DNA from: a virus
Length of the DNA: 31,616 bases
Virus record (IMG/VR): IMGVR_UViG_3300017724_000039
Location: 1 to 31,616 of that record
Strand: one strand, 5' to 3'
Under the pieces are notes generated by a model that worked only from the letters and a program-made list of their open reading frames with translations, had not been told where the DNA came from and did no database searches. The translations under genes were made by a program, and so were the position numbers. Below, piece after piece: positions 11,400 to 22,472 of this stretch; positions within the stretch are counted from its first letter, which is position 1, and the number at the start of each line of letters is the position of its first letter.

Positions 11400-12371
11400 T
11401 TAATTGATTGAGTCATTATAATCTTCAAATCTATCAAAATCAATTGTTTCAACAGTATTTGAGAATCTAATAACTCCCGGAACTCTTCCAGAATCTTCAT
11501 CGAAGGTTGGTGAATTCGGATCAAGAATACCATCAGGTTGCGGTGCAATCCTGCCGTATGATGCTATCAATTCAGAAACAGGCATTGTAGCATATCGTGA
11601 TATATCTATACCGATTCTTGTACGTGTTTCTTGAGTATCTGAATCACTACCATCTGGAATTCTACCTAATACTTCAAACGATGGTTGACCAAACACGGCT
11701 GTTGCTTGTCCTTCAAGTGTAATAGCTAATTGATCCGCAGACACTGCTACGACTTCTGGCATTTCCCCAACACCAAATAAATTTTCACCGGGTGTTAATT
11801 CTAGTACAACTTCACCACCAATAAAGAATCCAGCTGGGTGAACAAATTGTCTATATAGATCTCTCCATCTAACAATAGGAATAGATGATCTAACTAAGAT
11901 TGAGAATACTTGATATAACGCATTGTTTTGAATGAACTTCAAAGATTCAGATCCGATTACTGATTCACTTACAATAAACATATCTTTTTTTGGAAATTCA
12001 ATTTCGACTGTTTCTTGAAAGAATGCTCTAAAGAAACCTTCGGCAGAATATCTTGAACCTTTAACTCTATAAAAGTTAGCAAACATCCGTAAAGCTTCAC
12101 GAGGATTTTGAAAATAATCTCTTGACGCTCCTCCAGCAATTTCTTTAAATATCTGATCTAGCTGATTAACTGAAGCATGTTCAATATCTCTAATTGTAAA
12201 TAGATCATTAATAATACTTGTAGTTTCATCAGAATCAACATACTCATAGTAACCTTCTAAGAAAGCAACTAGGCTTGGATATTCAGTCTGAAAATATTCA
12301 GGAAGAACTTCTTTAACTAAATTGCCATGAAGGTTAATATTTCGTCTATTGAAATCTTGAATAGTTTGCAT
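11400..12371 (-). CDS. Baseplate wedge protein, gp7/gpI/TssG-like
   Basis: A 323-residue protein whose start overlaps the gp6 stop by one base (TAATG). The segment from about residue 60 to 125 (FTIRDIEHASVNQLDQIF..., then MFANFYRVKGSRYSAEGFFRAFF) resembles tail protein I (P2 gpI), in which a KGT/KGS-type motif precedes a helix. P2 gpI, T6SS TssG and T4 gp7 occupy equivalent places in the wedge, beside gp6 and gp25. The gene order gp25-gp6-this gene matches that trio. It is far shorter than T4 gp7 (about 1030 residues), so the peripheral parts would be supplied by other proteins. The family link is by motif and context, not a firm identification. Confidence 0.65.
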   Translation of the reverse strand: MQTIQDFNRRNINLHGNLVKEVLPEYFQTEYPSLVAFLEGYYEYVDSDETTSIINDLFTIRDIEHASVNQLDQIFKEIAGGASRDYFQNPREALRMFANFYRVKGSRYSAEGFFRAFFQETVEIEFPKKDMFIVSESVIGSESLKFIQNNALYQVFSILVRSSIPIVRWRDLYRQFVHPAGFFIGGEVVLELTPGENLFGVGEMPEVVAVSADQLAITLEGQATAVFGQPSFEVLGRIPDGSDSDTQETRTRIGIDISRYATMPVSELIASYGRIAPQPDGILDPNSPTFDEDSGRVPGVIRFSNTVETIDFDRFEDYNDSIN

Positions 12372-14206
12372 TATAAACTCACGCTAATTGTTTGTCTATC
12401 AATCAGACCAGCAGCAAATGATGCATCATCATCAAGAGAGATAACAAAGTTTCTCAAAGGTTTGATTACGTTTTCATTTGATGGCTTAGCTGATATTTTG
12501 ATAAATGTGTTTCCAGAAGTAATTGATTCTAAACTAAATCCAACAAGTTCAATCTTACCATTAGCTGGTGTGTATTGTCCTACATTATCAATAAGAATAT
12601 TTCCTAGAGTGTCTGTAACTTGTAACTTAGTAGAACTTAATTGGTTTTTAATAAGTGCAACTATTCCGTTATATGTAAATGTAGATGACGTAATAGTTGT
12701 ATTAACATCATCAGCTGGAGCTAATGCAACAGGGAAATTAATTTCGTACTGTTCTGATTGATTTAGAATTGGTTCAAATCTTTGTTGAACTTTAACATTA
12801 ATACTTGAAGAAATAATAGCATCAGACACTGCATCAACTTGCGTTGTAAGAGCTGACTTTCTAAAAGTCTTACCGAATACTCCTAAGTTGTCAGTAAAGA
12901 ATTCTCTCACTTTTGCAGCAACAGCTGCTTCAGTAGATTGTAGTGTTACGCTTGTTAAGTTAGGGTCAAATGAGAATTCAACAATAGCTTCGACAAAAGT
13001 ATCAATAGGATCCACAAAGATAGTTCCAATTGAAAGAACTGAAAGATACTCAGTTAAACTTGAAACTATAGTATCTTTAGTTGTAGTCTTTTCGGCATTA
13101 GTTGTACCTGTTGCAAATTTTAATCCTACATAAACATTACCATAGTTTGCTGGAACATTATCTTCTCCACCCCACGCAATAGCATCAATAATATTAGCAT
13201 AATTTTTTAGAATGATTGCCTTATAATCTTCTGCTGTAACTAATCGTTGTTGTGAAGCAAATGCAATAGGTGCATTCTGTCTTATGCTCTCAATTGACTG
13301 TCTATCTCCACCTGATGAAGACGGTGCTTCAGTTACAACAGTGAGATCATATCCAGTTGAATTAACTGTAAACTGTGCAGATGGAGTAAATACCTTTGCA
13401 CCATTACCTTCAGTTCCAACTGTTGATAGGTATTGAATTTGAATAACGTTTCCTGTATCTGGAGATTTACCAAATGATACACCATCTCCAAAATTTAATT
13501 CATAAAAACCATTTGGAGTTTCTGTGATTTGATAAAACTGAGATTCTGCAGAAACTCTAATCGCTGCAGCAAGAGGTGTATATGATGAGAAATCTGAAGT
13601 AGACGGATTATCAAATACTTTTACAGTTGCTGTAGAGGTATCAATAGTTTTATCTGGAATGATGTAAAGTTGGCGTTCACCGGTTTCACCCACATAGAAT
13701 GTTTTAGTTTTTAACGTTCCTTCATATACAAGGATTCCTGTTTCTCCTAATGAATTAAGAAAAACGTAATTACCAGTTCCATCATCAGTTGCAACAATTT
13801 GTTCTAAAATTCTAAATGTATATGTTACATCATTAACTGAAGCTGTAAACGATGTTAAAGCAGGTAGTGTATAAGTGTTTGATCTATTAGCTACACCAGA
13901 CAAATTGAGACTAATATTAATAGTTGCTTTTGCTGCTGTAATAGATCTAGGTTCATAACCTAATGATATAGCATGTGATACTACAGAACTTCTTAGTTGA
14001 GCAGTATTCAGATAAGATTCGTTTAATGCGAAGTTTGCTGTTAACGCGTTATAATGAGTATTATATGCTAGCACATCAAGGATGTTATTTAATCCTGACG
14101 CTTCGAATTCATAATCGCTAAATTCAGTTTTAGCCTGAAGATACGTTTTAAGTGAATCTTTTATTTGAACGAAGTCAAGCTTAGTTGACTGAATATTTGT
14201 TGCCAT
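12371..14206 (-). CDS. 6: Baseplate wedge protein gp6 (baseplate J-like)
   Basis: A 611-residue protein (T4 gp6 is about 660). The N-terminus has the gp6 signature of marine T4-like phages: LDFVQIKDSLKTYLQ, then SGLNNILDVLAYNTHYNA and LNESYLNTAQLRSSVVSHA at about residues 40-85. Further on come GELNFGDG-type (YELNFGDGVSFGK) and SGGDRQSIESIRQNAPIAF motifs, both usual in the baseplate J/gp6 superfamily. gp6 dimers form the ring linking the wedges. The gene starts one base after gp25 and ends overlapping the gp7-like gene, so the three are translationally coupled. Expression likely comes from the late promoter at 14676. Confidence 0.92.
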   Translation of the reverse strand: MATNIQSTKLDFVQIKDSLKTYLQAKTEFSDYEFEASGLNNILDVLAYNTHYNALTANFALNESYLNTAQLRSSVVSHAISLGYEPRSITAAKATINISLNLSGVANRSNTYTLPALTSFTASVNDVTYTFRILEQIVATDDGTGNYVFLNSLGETGILVYEGTLKTKTFYVGETGERQLYIIPDKTIDTSTATVKVFDNPSTSDFSSYTPLAAAIRVSAESQFYQITETPNGFYELNFGDGVSFGKSPDTGNVIQIQYLSTVGTEGNGAKVFTPSAQFTVNSTGYDLTVVTEAPSSSGGDRQSIESIRQNAPIAFASQQRLVTAEDYKAIILKNYANIIDAIAWGGEDNVPANYGNVYVGLKFATGTTNAEKTTTKDTIVSSLTEYLSVLSIGTIFVDPIDTFVEAIVEFSFDPNLTSVTLQSTEAAVAAKVREFFTDNLGVFGKTFRKSALTTQVDAVSDAIISSSINVKVQQRFEPILNQSEQYEINFPVALAPADDVNTTITSSTFTYNGIVALIKNQLSSTKLQVTDTLGNILIDNVGQYTPANGKIELVGFSLESITSGNTFIKISAKPSNENVIKPLRNFVISLDDDASFAAGLIDRQTISVSL

Positions 14207-14207
14207 G

Positions 14208-14654
14208 TTACCTCAACCTTGATAGTGTTGTTTCTACTTCTACTATATCATTTAAATTTCTAACTTGAAATATAACTTTAACCTTTACTTCGTTTCGATC
14301 AATATTATCATTAACTATAATATCGATTACTCTTGCTCTTGGTTCGTAGTTCTCAATTGCAAGTTTACAATCATCTTGTATTGTAATATCAGTTTCGTCA
14401 CTGGCTAATTCAAATAAGATGTCATTTAGGTTTCCACCAAAGTATGGTCTAAATGGTTTTTCAAAATGATTAGTTAGTAGTAAATTTTTAACAGCTTGCT
14501 TTACAGCAGCTACTTCAGTTTTTTTATAGACGTCACCATTCGGTTTTGTTTTAAATGTTAAATCTATATCAGAAAACTGAGTTTCTCGAGAACCAATTAA
14601 AGTTCTAGTTGATAGAAATCCGTCTTCTGCTGATAAGGCACGATTAGCTGCCAT
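14208..14654 (-). CDS. 25: Baseplate wedge protein gp25
   Basis: A 148-residue protein (T4 gp25 has 132). It shows the gp25/TssE pattern: FSDIDLTF near residue 27, then KNLLLTNHFEKPFRPYFGGNLNDILFE at about 52-78, with the FRP..G fold core, and the C-terminal IENYEPRARVIDI segment with its E-P-R triplet. This fold is lysozyme-like by family name only; it is structural and joins gp6 to the sheath. The start has an AAGGAT ribosome site and a TATAAATA octamer 22 bases upstream. Confidence 0.93.
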   Translation of the reverse strand: MAANRALSAEDGFLSTRTLIGSRETQFSDIDLTFKTKPNGDVYKKTEVAAVKQAVKNLLLTNHFEKPFRPYFGGNLNDILFELASDETDITIQDDCKLAIENYEPRARVIDIIVNDNIDRNEVKVKVIFQVRNLNDIVEVETTLSRLR

Positions 14655-14675: not shown

Positions 14676-14683
14676 TATTTATA
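14676..14683 (-). promoter_or_regulatory. T4-type late promoter TATAAATA
   Basis: An exact TATAAATA octamer on the minus strand overlapping the stop codon of the needle gene and 22 bases before the gp25 ATG. The predicted start near 14670 gives a leader of about 16 bases that still includes the ribosome site. It would drive gp25, gp6 and the gp7-like gene. Confidence 0.65.
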
Positions 14684-16745
14684 CGGTAACTTCAGTGAAT
14701 TCTTTGTTAGTCAGCACTTTGTTATTGAACCGAGTTTCAATATTCATTGAATATTCACCTGTATAATCTTCTGAAACAAGTGGCATTTGAATAATAATTT
14801 GAACATTAAGTCCAGCTGGATCAAAAGTATCATAATCTAATATAAGCTTTTCATAATACATATTGTCTTTTAAGTAAACAGCTAAGTCAAACGTTTTTTC
14901 AATATCAGGTACGCCTTTTGTATCAACTAATTCGTATACAACTGCACGACCACTTGTTTGCAAATCATTAATACTTCCGGGTGTTAATACTTCGTTACGG
15001 CCTTGTCTATATAATCCTTCGACGACAACCAATCTATGATCTTTAAATTTACCAGTATCATCTGATATAAGATTCATAGCTTCTGCTTGAAGATATAATT
15101 GTCGTGCTATAGCTTTTCTTGTTACAATATCTGTAGGAGATATATGATCCAGCGTAATCTTATCACCTTTACCTCCTAAGAATTTAGCAATAGTTATTCC
15201 TTTTGCTAATTTAGTTTTAGAATTAATTACATCTCTGAAATTAGGATTGTATACTGGATCAGGTGTTATAAGCTGAGGTACTGGTTTCGGTACAATTTTT
15301 TTAGATGCATCACTAGGATTAATCTGACCCAGATACTTTTGTCCAATTACTTTAGTTGGCTTACTGCTCTCAACTCTTCCTATTGACGCAGGAGAAGTTT
15401 CACTAAATGAAGAACTTAATTTACCTGCTCCAATTTGAGAACCAGTAAATACTGGATTTTGTAATGTCGAATCTGATCTTAATTTACTTCTAATTTCTCT
15501 AATGTTAAGAGGCTTATTAGTAATATTATCATTCTTCTCATTATCACTTACAGAGTTAAGAAGTCCTGCACCCGGATCTACTTTTACGACCGGATGTCCA
15601 TATGAGCCTTTAGTAAGATAGCCATTAAGATTTACTTGAGTTGGTAAAGCTGTGGCTTTAGGATCTACCGGTTCTGCGGTATGTGTTGTGGATGTTAATG
15701 TTCCACCACCTGAACCAGCACCTAACGGAGCTGACCCAGCCTCATCTGCCTGTGCCGCAAATGATGCTTTACCTACAAGAGAACCATGGAATGTTGTAGC
15801 GTGCATGGATGTTGCATTCACTCGTTGAGTATATGCAGTGTTTGTTGTAATAGTATCTGTTGCTGTTATTGAATGTCCAGTGTACATATTATAGTTGTAC
15901 ATAATAATATTCTGCCCACCTATTGTACCAGTATCGCCAAAGACTGACATTGATTGCGCAGCAAGATTCATATCAGGAGCAGAACCTAATAATCTAGTTT
16001 CTGATGTTATTCTAGTTTGGCCTGAACTCATGATTGAAGTTGCACCTTCAACAGCGTTTCTAAAATCTCCTTTTACGATATTATTAAACCCTTGTAGAGT
16101 TGTATGCGCAGTTGTACCAGTTGTTGTGCTACTTCTATTTCCATCAACATTACTTCCATGATTTCCATGGATTTTTTCTCTAAAGTTTCCGTCAACTTCA
16201 GTAAGAATATCACCGGCAACATCTATATTAAAGTTACCACCTACGTTTAAATTATAATCTCCAGCAACATCGATATCTAAATTTCCGTTATATGTTAATT
16301 GAGCATCACCTTCTACAATTAGTTTACTCTCACCCTGTACAATAGTAACAAGATTATTTTTAGTTGCAACCACTACAGTTCCATCTGTTCTCATTTCAAC
16401 GCCAGCGCCAGTTCTATGTCTAATCAAAATTCTTTCGCCAGCAGGTGTGTCATCTATTTCAATAACATGTCCTGATCTAGATTCTTGAACTTGATTCAGA
16501 GGATACTGAGATTGTGGAGGTGTGTCTAAACCAAGATCTAGATCTAAGTTACCACCACCAATATAGAGATCATTTCTTTCTATTCCTCTTGCATTTTGAT
16601 TAATGCTTGGCCCGTAAAAATAATCAGATCTTGGATATGTTCCACTTGGGTCAAAGAAACCAGTTCTAAAAATTCCTTTAGAATTTTCTTTGGCTTCTCC
16701 TATAGAAGCTTCGCGATCTCTTAACTCATCATTTTCTGTACTCAT
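14679..16745 (-). CDS. Spike beta-helix (gp5 C-terminal type) with degenerate M15-like C-terminal domain
   Basis: A 688-residue protein carrying the needle part of T4 gp5. Residues 91-126 (SGHVIEIDDTPAGERI..., GAGVEMRTDGTVVV) match the start of the gp5/VgrG beta-helix. Residues 136-207 are nine consecutive octapeptides of the gp5 form VxGxxxxx (for example VAGDYNLN, VGGNFNID, VAGDILTE, VDGNFREK), which build a trimeric beta prism. A glycine/threonine-rich linker lies near 340-360. Residues of about 540-688 recall D,D-peptidase family M15 (RLVVVEGLYRQG; TSGRAVVYEL; YYEKLILDYDTFDPAGLNV), but the expected zinc-binding H and D positions are Q596 and V603, so it is probably inactive. The start lies one base after the amidase gene. 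The gp5 N-terminal domains are in separate genes upstream. Confidence 0.85.
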   Translation of the reverse strand: MSTENDELRDREASIGEAKENSKGIFRTGFFDPSGTYPRSDYFYGPSINQNARGIERNDLYIGGGNLDLDLGLDTPPQSQYPLNQVQESRSGHVIEIDDTPAGERILIRHRTGAGVEMRTDGTVVVATKNNLVTIVQGESKLIVEGDAQLTYNGNLDIDVAGDYNLNVGGNFNIDVAGDILTEVDGNFREKIHGNHGSNVDGNRSSTTTGTTAHTTLQGFNNIVKGDFRNAVEGATSIMSSGQTRITSETRLLGSAPDMNLAAQSMSVFGDTGTIGGQNIIMYNYNMYTGHSITATDTITTNTAYTQRVNATSMHATTFHGSLVGKASFAAQADEAGSAPLGAGSGGGTLTSTTHTAEPVDPKATALPTQVNLNGYLTKGSYGHPVVKVDPGAGLLNSVSDNEKNDNITNKPLNIREIRSKLRSDSTLQNPVFTGSQIGAGKLSSSFSETSPASIGRVESSKPTKVIGQKYLGQINPSDASKKIVPKPVPQLITPDPVYNPNFRDVINSKTKLAKGITIAKFLGGKGDKITLDHISPTDIVTRKAIARQLYLQAEAMNLISDDTGKFKDHRLVVVEGLYRQGRNEVLTPGSINDLQTSGRAVVYELVDTKGVPDIEKTFDLAVYLKDNMYYEKLILDYDTFDPAGLNVQIIIQMPLVSEDYTGEYSMNIETRFNNKVLTNKEFTEVTV

Positions 16746-16746
16746 A

Positions 16747-18423
16747 TTATACTCCGATCGAAATCTGTTTTCTTGTTAAAGGTTCTTCAAAACCAAATGC
16801 TAAATTTTCTTTACCAAATTTATTGTTTACATATTCTTCAACATCAAACCCAGGATCTTGTTTACCTTTATCGTCTGTGTCTACATGGCCAAATGCTTGT
16901 CCGCCGGGATAAACTTTATAAAAGTTTTTCATAAATTGATCAAAGGCTGCAAACTGTTTTTCATTAATAGAACCAGAGTTTACATAGTTACCCCTATTAG
17001 GAGTTCCTGACATACAGTTATATCCTGCAACAAAACTAATTCCTATACTTCTATTATTATGTCCGTTATCTAAAGCATGTGCTCCTACTTTATTAATAGG
17101 TCTGCCGCGCTGTAGTCTTCCATCTTTTCTAATAATATAATGATAACCACATCCAGAGAATCCTCTTTGTGTATGCCATTCGTGAACTTCTTCTGAACCA
17201 ATATCTTGATTCAAAAATGTACCAGTCCAATGAACAACAACTTCAGTAATTTCACGACTAACAGATCTTAGTTCTGCTTCTAATTCTTCTTCACTACTAA
17301 TATAAGTAAACCCATATTTCTTAGTAGTAGGAGCTGAAGTATTTCGTTGAGCATTTACAATTTTTGTAGTAGCACCTTTTTCGTTATTTGTTATAACTTC
17401 TGTGTTTGCTGGTGCAGGATCATCAACAGCTTTATTTTCTTTTCTTTGAGCAATAATATCTGGTGTTGCTCTAATTTCTTGTTGTGTTGCAACTGTAGTA
17501 TTTTCATTTTGCCAAACGTTTGCACCAGCTCCAATAATTTCATCAGTAGAAGTGCTGCCGCCAATTGCGTCAGTAATATCTGGAGTTTTCAATGTATCAG
17601 CAACAGAAGTTGTAAGACTATTAACTCTATCTTCAATCACAGCAAAATCTAGTGGTGAGCTAGATGATATTGTATTAGCAACTTCTTTAAATGCATTTAA
17701 TTCGCCTGAAGATATTTTAGATGTTAATCCATCTAATTGACTTTGATCAAACACTCCATTTACCATATTACTAATATCTCTAAATACAGATTTATCAGCC
17801 TTTAGTGTTACAGCTTCAAGTATGTTTGGAGAACCTCCACCTTGCTGTGCAGTTAATGCATCTGCAAATGCTTTAACATCATCTTCTAAAGCCTCTCCCA
17901 TTGCTTTAGCTGCTTCAAGACCTTTGTTTATTGTATTTTTTAATTCAGCTTGAAATTCCGGTGATGTAAGTTCATTCAATACGCTATTAAGTTCAGCTGC
18001 AGCTCTTGGTGTAACTTCTACCAACGCATCTTTAACTGCCCTAGGTGTATTAGATGATGCTACCTCTTTTAAGAATCCATTAGATCCTGCATCAGTTGTA
18101 CCAGCGATTGCTTGTAATTCAGCAGCTGCAGTTGCAGAAGCTTCAGTCATATCTTCTATAAGATCTGCAGTAAGACCCGGAACATCTTTTGTCATGAAAC
18201 AAACAGCATCACCCGGAGCTAGATCTGTAGGATGATCTGCAGATTGAGATACAGGTTTAAATCCATTGATAGCTTCTAAGTCTCTTCCTAATTTACTTTT
18301 AGTAGTAGCTTCAAATCTTTTTCTAAGAGTTTCTGCAGCAGAAGCCAAAGCGGCCGACTGTGTACGAACAGCAACTCTTGTTTCTCCTAGTGCTTCATTT
18401 AATCTAGCTGTTGTTATTGTCAT
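16747..18423 (-). CDS. Tail-associated N-acetylmuramoyl-L-alanine amidase (amidase_2 / T7 lysozyme type)
   Basis: A 558-residue protein with two parts. Residues 1-360 are alanine-rich and helical with low-complexity linkers, likely a structural or coiled region. Residues of about 390-545 form an amidase_2/PGRP domain that would cleave the bond between N-acetylmuramic acid and L-alanine in peptidoglycan. Likely zinc ligands are H398 (VVVHWTGT), H513 (FGHVDTDD) and D523 (QDPGFD); K521 precedes D523 by two residues, as the catalytic Lys does in AmpD and T7 lysozyme. Y427 in GYHYII matches the T7 lysozyme tyrosine. It starts inside the stop of the lysozyme gene (4-base ATGA overlap) and is followed after one base by the needle gene, so it is most likely a spike component rather than a lysis enzyme. 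Confidence 0.85.
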   Translation of the reverse strand: MTITTARLNEALGETRVAVRTQSAALASAAETLRKRFEATTKSKLGRDLEAINGFKPVSQSADHPTDLAPGDAVCFMTKDVPGLTADLIEDMTEASATAAAELQAIAGTTDAGSNGFLKEVASSNTPRAVKDALVEVTPRAAAELNSVLNELTSPEFQAELKNTINKGLEAAKAMGEALEDDVKAFADALTAQQGGGSPNILEAVTLKADKSVFRDISNMVNGVFDQSQLDGLTSKISSGELNAFKEVANTISSSSPLDFAVIEDRVNSLTTSVADTLKTPDITDAIGGSTSTDEIIGAGANVWQNENTTVATQQEIRATPDIIAQRKENKAVDDPAPANTEVITNNEKGATTKIVNAQRNTSAPTTKKYGFTYISSEEELEAELRSVSREITEVVVHWTGTFLNQDIGSEEVHEWHTQRGFSGCGYHYIIRKDGRLQRGRPINKVGAHALDNGHNNRSIGISFVAGYNCMSGTPNRGNYVNSGSINEKQFAAFDQFMKNFYKVYPGGQAFGHVDTDDKGKQDPGFDVEEYVNNKFGKENLAFGFEEPLTRKQISIGV

Positions 18424-19259
18424 GTAGTAAACCTCTTATATATTTCTTCTGCTTTAAGTCTACGAGCTGTCTCTCTTACTGGTGAACTAACTAACCAAGT
18501 TATATAATATCTAGTAAATATATCAACTGCTGCTTTAGTTCCAGTAGTTCGTTTTAGTTTACCTAAACCTAAGAAAGGAAATGTTCTTAATTCATAAAGT
18601 ATAAACTGTAACTGAGCTCCAAGAGAACCAGGGTTTAATCCTCTATTGCCAGCAAAGTATAATAGATTCTGATATCTATTTCCTTCTGTTTCAATCATAG
18701 GCCATTGTACAATACCATATGATCCTTTAACTTCTTTGAGTGGATCTATCTCATTACCTGACTGCTCAATTATAGCTGCAACGATTGCAGCTGCAACTTC
18801 AGTTCCAAAGTTTGCAGCAATAAAAAAGTTAAATGCTTTTTCTGCATTAGTAGAACCTTTTATGAATGATGATATTCCTTCTGCTTCTGTTTGTAATGAA
18901 GCATCTCCTTCTGATAAAGCTTGCACCTGTTGAGGAGAAGGATCTTCTACAAAAGGAACTGTTCCCATTATTATAGGAATCTGTGATGAGGGTCCATCCA
19001 TGAAAAAACCGACGACTCTAGCGCCTTCAATTAGTTGTGGCATTTTACCAATACCAGAACTTCCGCCTTCTGTTGTTGGAACAATTGCTTGTGCCCAAGG
19101 TAATGCATCTGATGGCAGATCTTCGATTCTTTCAGGATGGATTCCGTAAATTCGAATTTGCGATCTTCCTAGTTGTAAAGGATCTGCTGTATTAATAACA
19201 ACACCCATAAACCAGCGAAAGTTATCTCCGTAATATAATTGATCAATTGTAGTACTCAT
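18420..19259 (-). CDS. Spike N-terminal part: gp5-like OB fold plus tail lysozyme domain
   Basis: A 279-residue protein. Residues 10-105 are the gp5 OB-fold domain, with the usual FRWFMGVVIN...DPLQLGRSQIRIYGIHP opening and IEGARVVGFFMDG...PIIMGTVPF ending; in T4 it binds gp27. Residues of about 137-279 look like a phage tail lysozyme domain, with a hydrophobic helix into IIEQSGNEIDP (E165 as candidate catalytic acid), then GSYGIVQWP (179-187) and a long helical C-terminus. This replaces the T4-type lysozyme of gp5. The gene overlaps both neighbours by 4 bases (ATGA), which favours a fixed ratio of hub, spike and amidase. The beta-helix that should follow is two genes downstream. Confidence 0.85.
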   Translation of the reverse strand: MSTTIDQLYYGDNFRWFMGVVINTADPLQLGRSQIRIYGIHPERIEDLPSDALPWAQAIVPTTEGGSSGIGKMPQLIEGARVVGFFMDGPSSQIPIIMGTVPFVEDPSPQQVQALSEGDASLQTEAEGISSFIKGSTNAEKAFNFFIAANFGTEVAAAIVAAIIEQSGNEIDPLKEVKGSYGIVQWPMIETEGNRYQNLLYFAGNRGLNPGSLGAQLQFILYELRTFPFLGLGKLKRTTGTKAAVDIFTRYYITWLVSSPVRETARRLKAEEIYKRFTT

Positions 19260-20635
19260 GTTGGTATCACCGTCATTCCATCTCTATTAGCAAGTTTCAA
19301 AATTCTTAAAACACAATCATATTTAAATTTGCCTTGATTATTTTGAATCATATGTTTACATGCTGCTATTAAATATATACCAGATCTTTTTCCATCTGGC
19401 GCGTTTTCAGATAATGTAGCACCAGCTTGTTTTGGTTCATTGTCTAAAAACTCAACATCAATTAAATTACCAATTGAAACATTACTAAATTTTTCTCCAC
19501 CAGAATAATACATTGACATTCCTGGGATAACTATTTCCATTGCTGATTTTTGAATAAACTTATGATACGACATTGACTTTGCTTTTTGAGAATGATCAGC
19601 CGGTGTCATGTTTTCATGATAAGATGGAATATCACTATACACTTTTGATGTTCCTATTTGAGTAACTCGTATAGTATTAAACTCGTCTAGTCTTTTTTCT
19701 TTTATCTTAAATTCAGTATCTAAGTTTGGAGTTTTATTTCCACTAAACAAATTAGAATTTTTAGCTAACTGTTTATAAACGTCTTTAATATTATAATTAA
19801 ATTTATTATCTTGAAATGTAGTAGTATCAATAAATCTATACTCACCACTTATTCCGCCTGTGTCTGCAATACCAATAGTGTTCTCAGTATTATTTACTTG
19901 ATATGATTTAATATTATATTGTTGAGCTGATACGTTTTGGTCTGATAAATTCTGAGCAGCACCTTGATTATATCTGTACGGAATAGTATTTAATGGTTGA
20001 CCTTCTAACAGAGTTTGCAGATCTAAAAGTCTAAACTTATCATCTCCTAGTATACTATACAGAAAATATGGCAATCCTAAATCTGAAGTAGATCTATCTG
20101 CTACCCAACGCATAGCTTTAAATGGAGACCAATTAGGAATAATGACTCGCATGTTTCCTTGAAATACTTTATTATTAGTCTTTACTTCTCTATCAAGACC
20201 AAAACTATCTTTAACAATCTTTTGGATAATTTCAGCTGGTGTACCATCATAACTCTTATTGACATTCGTAAGAGAATTAAGATAATCCTCAACCGATTCT
20301 AACGTGAATATTAAAATCTCTGATTGGTCGTTTCCTTTTTGAGAAGTTTCTAATTCTGATAAAAGAAAAGTTTTCTTAAGAGGTTTTTGAACATCACTTT
20401 GTAATGACATTTCTAAATGAATATATTCTGTGCCTTGAAAGTCTACAACAGCCAATAGATTAGCATCATCTAAGATTGTAACGTTTCCATGTAATCCTAG
20501 TGAAGTCATATCTTCATTAATTGTTAAATCAATAATAGATGAAGTAACGTCAAATTCAAATGTGCCTAAACGATCTGTTGAGATAATCGCACTCATTATT
20601 TTATAATCAGATGCTGATATAGTTAGCTCAGACAT
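19256..20635 (-). CDS. 27: Baseplate central hub protein, gp27-like
   Basis: A 459-residue protein (T4 gp27 has 391). The pattern is that of the gp27/gpD hub fold: a beta-barrel N-terminus (GTFEFDVTSSIIDLTINEDM), then VEDYLNSLTNVNKSYDGTPAEIIQKIVKD at about 132-160, then NWSPFKAMRWVADRST near 178-193, which is typical of hub proteins that hold the spike. It stands directly upstream of the OB-fold spike gene, as hub and spike genes do in many contractile systems, and starts one base after gp53. The gene number is by analogy to T4. Confidence 0.75.
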   Translation of the reverse strand: MSELTISASDYKIMSAIISTDRLGTFEFDVTSSIIDLTINEDMTSLGLHGNVTILDDANLLAVVDFQGTEYIHLEMSLQSDVQKPLKKTFLLSELETSQKGNDQSEILIFTLESVEDYLNSLTNVNKSYDGTPAEIIQKIVKDSFGLDREVKTNNKVFQGNMRVIIPNWSPFKAMRWVADRSTSDLGLPYFLYSILGDDKFRLLDLQTLLEGQPLNTIPYRYNQGAAQNLSDQNVSAQQYNIKSYQVNNTENTIGIADTGGISGEYRFIDTTTFQDNKFNYNIKDVYKQLAKNSNLFSGNKTPNLDTEFKIKEKRLDEFNTIRVTQIGTSKVYSDIPSYHENMTPADHSQKAKSMSYHKFIQKSAMEIVIPGMSMYYSGGEKFSNVSIGNLIDVEFLDNEPKQAGATLSENAPDGKRSGIYLIAACKHMIQNNQGKFKYDCVLRILKLANRDGMTVIPT

Positions 20636-20636
20636 A

Positions 20637-21359
20637 TTAACTTACCATAGCTTGTTTAAATGCTGAAAAGACTGAAGATACTGATTCTGGTTTTATAACA
20701 CGTATAGGTCTTAGTAGATTATTTTGAAGTGTGTAGTGATCATAAAAAGTAATAGGTGTGATAGTTCCACCGGGACCAACTGCAGGATCTATATCAACAT
20801 ATCCATCTGTATCTTCGTAATGACGTGTAGATAAATATTCTTCTTGTGAAGTAGTAATAACAATTGTTTCAAGTCCAGTGCCAGTATCTACTGAGCATGT
20901 TTCTCCGTTTGTAAATGATTGAGTTGTACCAACAACAATCTGACCTAAGTCTAATCTTCTTTTTAAAATTTTACCAGATGCGCCAGAGTTATTACCAGTA
21001 ATAGTTTGGCCTACTTTCATTTTTCCTGATAATGAATCAAGAGTTGTTATTGTTGTATTAGGAAAATCTTTTTTGACTTTCTTTAAAAGCTCTTTAGCTG
21101 TCATCGGCCAGCCTGACTCTCTTAAATGATCATTCATTAAAAAGAATGTAAAGTAATATGACATATCGCCATATAACTTCATACTCATTACATCAGGTCT
21201 ATCACCATCTAATATTTCATATTTAGTATAATAAGCTAAGTTGTCTTTTACTGTATCAATGACATCAACATAAGCTGCAATGTTTTGAAAGTTTGTAGTA
21301 AACGTTTCATTACCAAATCTATATCCTAATGTAGGAAAGTCTTGAAAGTATAATGCCAT
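20637..21359 (-). CDS. 53: Baseplate wedge protein gp53
   Basis: A 240-residue protein with the gp53 signature: MALYFQDFPTLGYRFG, then YTKYEILDGDRPDVMSMKLYGDMSYYFTFFLMNDHLRESGWPMT at about residues 44-87, which is highly conserved in T4-like phages (DGDRPD; LYGD..Y...F.L.N; GWP). A small insert between 108 and 165 contains a GNNSGASGKILKR segment, which recurs in many phage structural proteins. gp53 completes the wedge and lets six wedges join around the hub. The gene is 3 bases after gp48 and one base before the hub gene. Confidence 0.92.
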   Translation of the reverse strand: MALYFQDFPTLGYRFGNETFTTNFQNIAAYVDVIDTVKDNLAYYTKYEILDGDRPDVMSMKLYGDMSYYFTFFLMNDHLRESGWPMTAKELLKKVKKDFPNTTITTLDSLSGKMKVGQTITGNNSGASGKILKRRLDLGQIVVGTTQSFTNGETCSVDTGTGLETIVITTSQEEYLSTRHYEDTDGYVDIDPAVGPGGTITPITFYDHYTLQNNLLRPIRVIKPESVSSVFSAFKQAMVS

Positions 21360-21362
21360 CTT

Positions 21363-22472
21363 TTAATATCCTTGCCAAATGTCTGCTTTATCCAGAGCTC
21401 TTGCTTCGCTAAATGTTAAAGCTATAGTTGTCTCTTGAAAACTTCCATCTCTCATCATTGTCATATTACTACCATTAAATGTAGTTTGCATTCCTGTAAG
21501 ATAACAATCTAAGTATTTAAATCCAATACTCTTATCTTTATATTTTGCTTCAATGCTAAACATATTTGGAAAGATGTAACCTAATGGGATGTTAGTGTTT
21601 GCTTCTCTAATTACTTCTGGATAAATTTCACTTCTAAACAAATAAACAATATCTCTAATTCTTTGTGCTTCAAGTATAGAAGTTGGAACCATAGTAAAAG
21701 TAAAACTAAATGTTCTAATTCCTACACCTTTAAAAATAGTTCTTGTATTAGGATTTGTTGTAACTCTCGATGCGCTTTTAATTGCACCGGCAGCAGTATC
21801 ACTAAATTTAGATGCAATACCAACGGCAGCTAATCGAGCAACATCACTATTAACATTTCCTTTAAACGCTTCTGTGAAACTTGATACGCCAGCCTCAAAA
21901 GCATTACTCATACCAGCTGCAACTCCTCCTGAGTTTGCTACACCTTGCTCTAATGCTCCACCGATTCTTCCTAAGTCAACACCTTCATATTCCAACGCAT
22001 CTGAATAGTTCAAAGAAGTTGGCATATATAAGTCTACAAAAGATCCATTGATTAATCTTTTAGGATTTAGAATTTTCTTAGAAGCAGATGTTGCTGTAGT
22101 AACTTTGGCTTGAGCGTCTTTTGCAGCAACTTGTGCCGCGCCATCAATATCTGAAGTGTTTGCTGTTGATGTTGTTTCTTTATCGCTTGACCTAGTGTGC
22201 TTTTCAACTTCAGCCAATGCCTTTGTAGAAATTTCTTCTGGTTCAATCTTACGTACTTTAAATCGAAGAAACGCTTCGTATCTATCTTGGTTATCAATAG
22301 GAAACTTTAATTGTTTTCTATTCTTACCAAAGTTTTGATCACTTAGGTTAGGAGTAAAACCTGTGCCTAAGATAGATTCAATAGCACCAGTCACACCACT
22401 TATTTTGTCACTGACAAATCCAGATACGGTACCGCCGATTCTATTTTTTATATTACTTACTTGAATTGCCAT
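21363..22472 (-). CDS. 48: Tail tube cap / baseplate protein gp48
   Basis: A 369-residue protein (T4 gp48 has 364) heading the minus-strand structural operon. Conserved parts are the glycine-rich N-terminus, LKFPIDNQDRYEAFLRFKV at about 55-73, and the C-terminal tube-fold domain, RTIFKGVGIRTFSFTFTMVP at about 243-262, followed by EAQRIRDIVYLFRSEIYPE and ending in TTIALTFSEARALDK. gp48 caps the baseplate hub and begins the tail tube. The paralogous T4 gp54 is an alternative, but gp48 next to gp53 is the order in related marine phages as I know it. The leader carries a TATAAATA late octamer 48-55 bases before the ATG and a rather weak GGA ribosome site. Confidence 0.82.
   Translation of the reverse strand: MAIQVSNIKNRIGGTVSGFVSDKISGVTGAIESILGTGFTPNLSDQNFGKNRKQLKFPIDNQDRYEAFLRFKVRKIEPEEISTKALAEVEKHTRSSDKETTSTANTSDIDGAAQVAAKDAQAKVTTATSASKKILNPKRLINGSFVDLYMPTSLNYSDALEYEGVDLGRIGGALEQGVANSGGVAAGMSNAFEAGVSSFTEAFKGNVNSDVARLAAVGIASKFSDTAAGAIKSASRVTTNPNTRTIFKGVGIRTFSFTFTMVPTSILEAQRIRDIVYLFRSEIYPEVIREANTNIPLGYIFPNMFSIEAKYKDKSIGFKYLDCYLTGMQTTFNGSNMTMMRDGSFQETTIALTFSEARALDKADIWQGY

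Follow-up and report, generated by a model that had tools for sequence, protein, structure and literature searches.

A T4-type central spike apparently divided over three genes in a clade of mostly uncultured phages

The gp5 protein of phage T4 is the textbook example of a spike that is made as one chain and cut during maturation. It carries an OB fold on the hub, the linker GFSDPTGQYPRR at residues 113-124, a T4L-type lysozyme after this linker and a VxGxxxxx beta-helix (PDB 1k28). As described in PMC3004832, the maturation cut falls at Ser351/Ala352, after the lysozyme, and the cleaved protein remains in place as (gp27-gp5*-gp5C)3, in which bound gp5C keeps the lysozyme at 10% activity. In Caulobacter phage Cr30, gp5 (AGS81101.1) is also one chain, of 701 amino acids, with an OB fold, a Phage_lysozyme2 domain, a beta-helix and, at the C-terminus, an M15-like region (PHROG 894). 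Here, we analyzed the virus record IMGVR_UViG_3300017724_000039 (31,616 bases, with no larger assembly behind the record), whose whole length is called the window below. In this window, the parts of the spike follow each other in the same order as in Cr30, distributed over three consecutive genes (genes 1, 2 and 3), the second of which encodes an amidase that both T4 gp5 and Cr30 gp5 lack.

As shown in Table 1, the three genes belong to a minus-strand operon with the order of a T4-type baseplate, i.e., tail tube cap, gp53, hub, gene 1, gene 2, gene 3, gp25 and gp6. A first-pass annotation, made from the letters of the stretch alone, had described coupled genes of 279, 558 and 688 amino acids, joined by a 4-base overlap (genes 1 and 2) and a 1-base gap (genes 2 and 3). 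The order, lengths, coordinates and both junctions are exact in the open reading frames (ORFs), the overlap being ATGA. Translational coupling, though plausible, would not be required, since genes 2 and 3 each appear, by eye, to have their own Shine-Dalgarno-like sequence (AGAGG and GGAG, respectively). In the profile of PHROG 430 (baseplate hub and tail lysozyme), positions 15-106 match gene 1 and positions 330-590 match gene 3; thus, one reference protein is covered by two genes, and the single polypeptide of the T4 gp5/PHROG 430 spike is represented here by three genes. A DNA-level search in phages gave no match, and the PDB search found no relative by sequence for the hub protein.

Of gene 1, the PDB search matched only the OB part to T4 gp5 (E 3e-15; Pfam Gp5_OB 1.4e-7), and this fold would be expected to sit on the hub. 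Instead of the T4L-family lysozyme found mid-chain in T4, the gene carries a Phage_lysozyme2 domain (PF18013), with 60.6 bits against a cut-off of 28.2 over the whole profile (1-140). The reading of gene 1 as an OB fold plus a tail lysozyme domain is therefore right for the OB fold and needs amending for the lysozyme, in which Gln166 replaces the conserved Glu of the ES motif, a residue that we take to be catalytic. A PDB search with the lysozyme domain of Cr30 found no relative. The beta-helix in gene 3 is recognized by PHROG 430 (2.2e-33), by residues 384-511 of T4 gp5 (E ~2e-12 in the PDB search) and by the comparison of its model with 1k28 (Z 8.2 over 240 residues); Gp5_trimer_C scored 1.2e-4, under the Pfam cut-off. 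The first-pass annotation had described the whole protein as beta-helix. The helix is present, but it takes up only residues ~78-275 of 688, and beyond it lie a low-confidence stretch of the model and a C-terminal M15/Hedgehog-like domain.

To place this arrangement among its relatives, loci with the same operon were gathered by three scans of viral contigs, and their genes were typed with iterated profiles (loci are given by L numbers). The clade comprises 127 loci including the window, 82 of which hold both the OB gene and the helix gene; within this count, L017 and L144 are one contig counted twice, and the OB genes encode 66 distinct proteins. An amidase-family gene parts the two in 82/82 loci, and they are joined in 0/82; one-piece gp5 occurs outside the clade, e.g., in Cr30. 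The four loci from metagenome-assembled genomes (MAGs) all have the same gene order (4/4), and the commonest junctions are -4 or -1 (58/91 and 53/92). On the hub protein tree, the split loci fall into a single clade with support 97 (54 rows), as they do on the gp6 tree with support 100 (44 rows), both being quick trees with support values from the Shimodaira-Hasegawa-like approximate likelihood ratio test (SH-aLRT) only and several long branches. These sequences show the three-gene arrangement to be both old and fixed in a single clade of T4-like phages, most of them uncultured. The MAG bins that contain clade loci disagree (Bacteroidetes, Opitutia, Thiotrichaceae and Sphingobacteriales); for this reason, we claim no host.

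The point at which the gp5 chain is broken was located with a 35-residue profile of the gene 3 N-termini, compared with 3160 ORFs, from which gene 3 homologues had been removed, and with isolate gp5 proteins. The 21 matches at E <1 were all OB-bearing gp5 proteins (including those of T4, D479, L067 and L071), and in 19/21 the linker match begins 9-14 residues downstream of where the OB match ends; L071 and L072 have ~245 residues between the OB fold and the linker. The PDB search had already suggested that gene 3 opens with the segment found after the OB fold in T4, and the alignment of the gene 3 model with T4 gp5 begins at residue 113 of the latter. Using the wider of two patterns, the linker motif (GFxDPxGxYPR) was found near the start of 94/98 gene 3 proteins, those of L061, L146, L147 and L148 lacking it; the narrower pattern found 27/98. 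Based on these alignments, the gp5 chain is shown to be interrupted between the OB fold and the linker leading to the beta-helix, and the hydrolases sit at this break. The parallel drawn earlier with the cleavage of T4 gp5 holds in that hydrolase and helix are on different chains, separate also in the mature T4 particle. It fails for the position, the break corresponding to T4 residue 113, upstream of Ser351/Ala352. Because the break precedes the linker, while the T4 lysozyme follows the linker and the T4 cut follows the lysozyme, the gene boundary is not the post-translational cut of the single T4 gene product made genetic at the same point.

The catalytic part of gene 2 is an Amidase_2 domain (Pfam 3.3e-13, 50.5 bits against a cut-off of 26) whose model superimposes on T7 lysozyme with Z 18.7 and a root-mean-square deviation of 2.2 over 137 residues. 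Residues H398, Y427, H513, K521 and D523, which by T7 lysozyme we take to be the active site, are all present in the window. Amidases filled the fold matches listed for the gene 2 model, which thus say little about its helical N-terminal region; another fold match was the VP-1 'baseplate hub subunit and tail lysozyme'. For the N-terminal 385 residues, there was no Pfam or PHROG match, and no clear relative outside the clade emerged from 13 candidates compared by profile. S-WAM1 gp5 (22.7 vs 16.6 for shuffled sequences), P-TIM40 gp5 (24.0 vs 15.5) and X1 (16.6 vs 12.7) exceeded their shuffles, as did L063, L074 and, marginally, L068; these matches span 8-30 columns only, with a probability <=1.4. 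Three close relatives have a division within the amidase gene as well, where an ORF of 201 amino acids, HAD-like by eye (L088 286-891 and L115 6778-7383), or of 64 amino acids (L089 1611-1805) separates the helical from the catalytic part.

Across the clade, the gene is kept more strictly than its active site. Scored on H398, Y427, H513 and D523 over 97 loci that retain the gene, the site is intact in 43/97, lost in 52/97 and cut by contig ends in 2/97 (alignment of 42 rows from 47 representatives, with L009, L032, L043, L131 and L146 left out). The losses fall mainly in one large sub-clade, with L012, L124 and L146 in addition, and two records with a lost site, L124 and L010, still gave a weak Amidase_2 match in an independent scan. 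The lysozyme Glu is kept in 82/92 aligned gene 1 proteins; another residue takes its place in the window, in the three loci closest to it (L002, L003 and L004) and also in L083/L086/L087 and L113/L114/L141. In L049, L053 and L058, another domain replaces the lysozyme, as it does in L146, there with a weak Hydrolase_2 match, and extra M15-type domains occur in gene 2 of L146 and, by eye, in gene 3 of L124 and L105. Among the 77 loci typed for both enzymes, 47 retain the lysozyme only, 9 the amidase only, 21 both and none neither, a pattern of at least one enzyme alive that takes a minimum of 3 changes each on the tree and contains two or three independent pairs only. The retention of gene 2 where its active site is lost suggests a structural role for its product. 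In the window phage, whose lysozyme domain lacks the conserved Glu, the amidase is probably the working enzyme.

The C-terminal domain of gene 3 weakly resembles peptidase M15 and Hedgehog folds. The model of this domain matches Hedgehog structures at Z ~5, and its profile scored 31.2 against M15 in hhalign, compared with a maximum of 20.1 in 40 shuffles (probability 30, E 5.5e-4), with L105 and the partial L113 left out. A comparison that included L105 (E 3.1e-5) was set aside, the stretch concerned in that locus being an extra, apparently intact M15-like domain. The metal-binding motif HxxGxAxD is gone in the window (LQTSGRAVVY, vs SQHEIGQAVD in Cr30) and in the aligned clade members (31 rows from 43 representatives), and it is kept in Cr30, RHph_I1_18, Melnitz, L061, L071 and L072. 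Several sub-clades (L005, L017, L023, L049, L053, L129, L146 and others) encode this C-terminal domain in a fourth gene of its own. PAAR-like tip genes lie, by eye, beside gp5 in the unsplit relatives L062, L063, L070 and L081; no PAAR match was found among the 17 window ORFs scanned with Pfam, and the C-terminal domain of gene 3 might cap the spike in place of PAAR.

Taken together, we consider it likely that genes 1 to 3 encode a divided T4-type central spike, in effect already cleaved, whose three proteins assemble non-covalently on the hub and in which the gene 2 product is both a structural and an enzymatic part. The OB trimer of gene 1 would rest on the hub protein, the N-terminal linker of gene 3 would pack onto it in the manner of the corresponding T4 segment, and the helical region of gene 2 would hold that protein around the OB/helix junction. 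The spike would thus be made directly in the divided state that T4 reaches through gp5 cleavage, and the beta-helix would fall away in the periplasm, freeing the hydrolases. Such a divided device can work, since in T4 the cleaved chains stay together with the lysozyme at a tenth of its activity.

Several points weigh against this model. The joint presence of the three products in virions is itself predicted from the genes, and the docking role of gene 2 is a guess, because its N-terminal region is without a known relative. The counts of lost active sites reduce to few events (a minimum of 3 changes for the amidase and 3 for the lysozyme), and the M15-like assignment of the gene 3 C-terminal domain is weak at the low scores obtained (probability 30, Z ~5). 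Additionally, the isolate C48C1 falls inside the clade on both trees without a three-gene spike at the locus. In its place lies a short OB-helix protein of 196 amino acids (L157 9334-9924), perhaps a replacement; the three-gene arrangement is therefore not indispensable.

As to how the arrangement arose, the first-pass annotation had proposed the insertion of an amidase gene into an ancestral gp5. This fits a hydrolase gene lying in the break, but so does another history, compatible with the divided spike and concerning its origin only, in which a one-piece OB-enzyme-linker-helix gp5 first came apart behind the enzyme, and the amidase entered the gap later without being the cause. We regard this order of events as close to evenly balanced, leaning slightly to the doubtful side. 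Its possible starting points exist as single chains, i.e., OB fold, inserted stretch, linker and helix in L071/L072, and OB fold, Phage_lysozyme2 and helix in Cr30. Splits with little or nothing between the parts also exist. In Rhizobium phage RHph_I1_18 (QIG70598.1, QIG70597.1, QIG70596.1), the record annotates the OB plus Phage_lysozyme2 gene and the helix plus M15 gene separately, as in L061, with a gene of 116-125 amino acids (116 in RHph_I1_18) in the place of the amidase; unlike in our clade, to which neither belongs, the helix gene lacks the linker motif. In Methylophilales phage Melnitz (QZI95101.1, QZI95102.1), the split also falls between OB fold and linker, the second gene carrying GFRDPNNFYPRR at residues 34-45, then the beta-helix and M15, whereas the first combines the OB fold with a VanY-like peptidase instead of a lysozyme, and no amidase gene lies between. 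On the other side, clade loci without an amidase-family gene number 0/82, and no intermediate is in hand.

RHph_I1_18 and L061 pair on the hub tree (support 100), and L061 pairs with the one-piece Cr30 on the gp6 tree (support 98). Melnitz groups on the gp6 tree with HTVC008M and Mosig (support 99), which are unsplit, and its split is thus probably independent. If the quick trees hold, there appear to be three splits in all, one in our clade and two in other T4-like lineages (Melnitz; RHph_I1_18/L061). The accessible sections of the Melnitz paper (PMC9004378) do not discuss the split, and those of the pelagimyophage paper (PMC7029224) call gp5 divergent only, likewise without discussing it. 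For Campylobacter phage IBB_35, the accessible part of its paper hints at a two-gene gp5, which is not clear from its gene table. Other T4-like genes are broken with products that assemble, such as the split nrdA of phage Aeh1 and the split gene 43 of phage 25; according to the accessible part of PMC2988022, these are tied to homing endonucleases or inserted sequence, whereas enzyme domains lie at the break described here. An amidase-family gene, not an endonuclease gene, occupies the break in all 82 loci, and by eye no endonuclease was recognized in the extra inserts of five loci. Between the amidase and beta-helix genes, L090 (1753-2785) contains ORFs resembling, by eye, iron-sulfur assembly proteins, and a short ORF is common to L090 and L150 (7779-7991). 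The gene immediately after gp5 in Klebsiella phage vB_KpnM_ALF_ER54 is annotated as a homing endonuclease (L176 3100-3684).

Improbable, in our judgment, is that gene 2 encodes the lysis endolysin or a free enzyme in the baseplate operon, with a spike made of genes 1 and 3 only. Its catalytic domain is closest to soluble endolysins of the T7 lysozyme type, and no separate amidase endolysin was seen in ten record fragments, the lysis enzyme being still to find. However, the gene lies between the spike genes throughout the 82 loci, it persists without its active site in more than half of the loci scored, which would be unexpected for an endolysin, and it has a helical N-terminal region of ~385 residues. 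Moreover, amidases close to the hub are not odd in themselves. In Vibrio phage VAP7, the protein annotated as 'amidase' (YP_009845673.1) unites an OB fold (39-94), a beta-helix and an Amidase_2 domain (417-538), although as a single chain of 1016 amino acids in which the amidase follows the helix and which also has an S74 chaperone domain; in Synechococcus phage S-WAM1, a 'hypothetical' protein of 1031 amino acids beside the hub gene (L174 9650-12745) has an amidase-like domain just under the Pfam cut-off. That the three genes are a single gene fragmented by assembly or sequencing errors, the refutation foreseen by the first-pass annotation and conceivable for a single 31.6-kb virus record, is excluded for practical purposes because related loci, 82/82 together with the 4/4 MAG contigs, show the same split with regular overlaps.

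Returning to the divided spike, its parts and principle are already known. What appears to be new is the three-gene form fixed across a broad clade, the position of the break and the retention of dead hydrolases; among the papers listed in full-text searches of open-licence PMC articles, we recognized no description of these three features. The arrangement suggests a needle built from ready-made pieces. If it works, covalent linkage and regulated cleavage would be dispensable, and phages with separate genes would be a natural test of this. The clade also points to a place on the T4-type spike where hydrolases can be exchanged, and dead enzymes may stay as building parts. More tentatively, and with somewhat more doubt than confidence, we propose that the clade swapped proteolytic maturation of the spike for gene division, with the OB/linker interface as a plug-in site at which hydrolases are swapped, gained and left to decay, the amidase as a structural collar of the spike that is retained even as a pseudo-enzyme, and one working wall-cutting enzyme sufficing per phage. 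For annotation, the gain is immediate, as each of genes 1, 2 and 3 is easily labelled 'lysozyme', 'endolysin' or 'hypothetical'.

Table 1. Coordinates of the spike genes, their domains and the neighbouring baseplate genes in the window
Feature	Position	Strand	Evidence
Gene 1: OB fold + Phage_lysozyme2, 279 amino acids	18420..19259	(-)	ORF, Pfam, PDB match to T4 gp5
OB fold of gene 1, residues ~11-113	18921..19229	(-)	PHROG 430/694/1922, Pfam Gp5_OB, PDB T4 gp5
Phage_lysozyme2 domain of gene 1, residues 137-277	18429..18851	(-)	Pfam PF18013 2.5e-16
Gene 2: helical N-terminal region + zinc amidase, 558 amino acids	16747..18423	(-)	ORF, Pfam, model
N-terminal 385 residues of gene 2, mostly helical	17269..18423	(-)	Model, mean predicted local distance difference test (pLDDT) 81.8 overall
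Amidase_2 domain of gene 2, residues 390-525	16849..17256	(-)	Pfam, T7 lysozyme fold, residues
Gene 3: OB-proximal linker + triple beta-helix + M15-like C-terminal domain, 688 amino acids	14679..16745	(-)	ORF, PHROG, model
Linker segment of gene 3 (GFFDPSGTYPR...), residues 28-60	16566..16664	(-)	Linker profile; model vs T4 gp5
Beta-helix of gene 3, residues ~78-275	15921..16514	(-)	PHROG 430, T4 gp5, model vs 1k28
C-terminal domain of gene 3, residues ~456-688, M15/Hedgehog-like fold	14679..15380	(-)	Model, profile match, alignments
Hub gene, PHROG 350 tail protein	19256..20635	(-)	PHROG; 4-base overlap with gene 1
gp53-like wedge gene	20637..21359	(-)	PHROG, Pfam
Baseplate tail tube cap gene	21363..22472	(-)	PHROG
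gp25-like wedge gene	14208..14654	(-)	PHROG, Pfam
gp6-like wedge gene	12371..14206	(-)	PHROG, Pfam

Two further genes of the window lie on the plus strand. The head closure gene (PHROG 218) at 22527-22997 matches a TnsA-like endonuclease N-terminal domain (E 2.2e-15), and a radical SAM protein gene is located at the window edge (49-1029).

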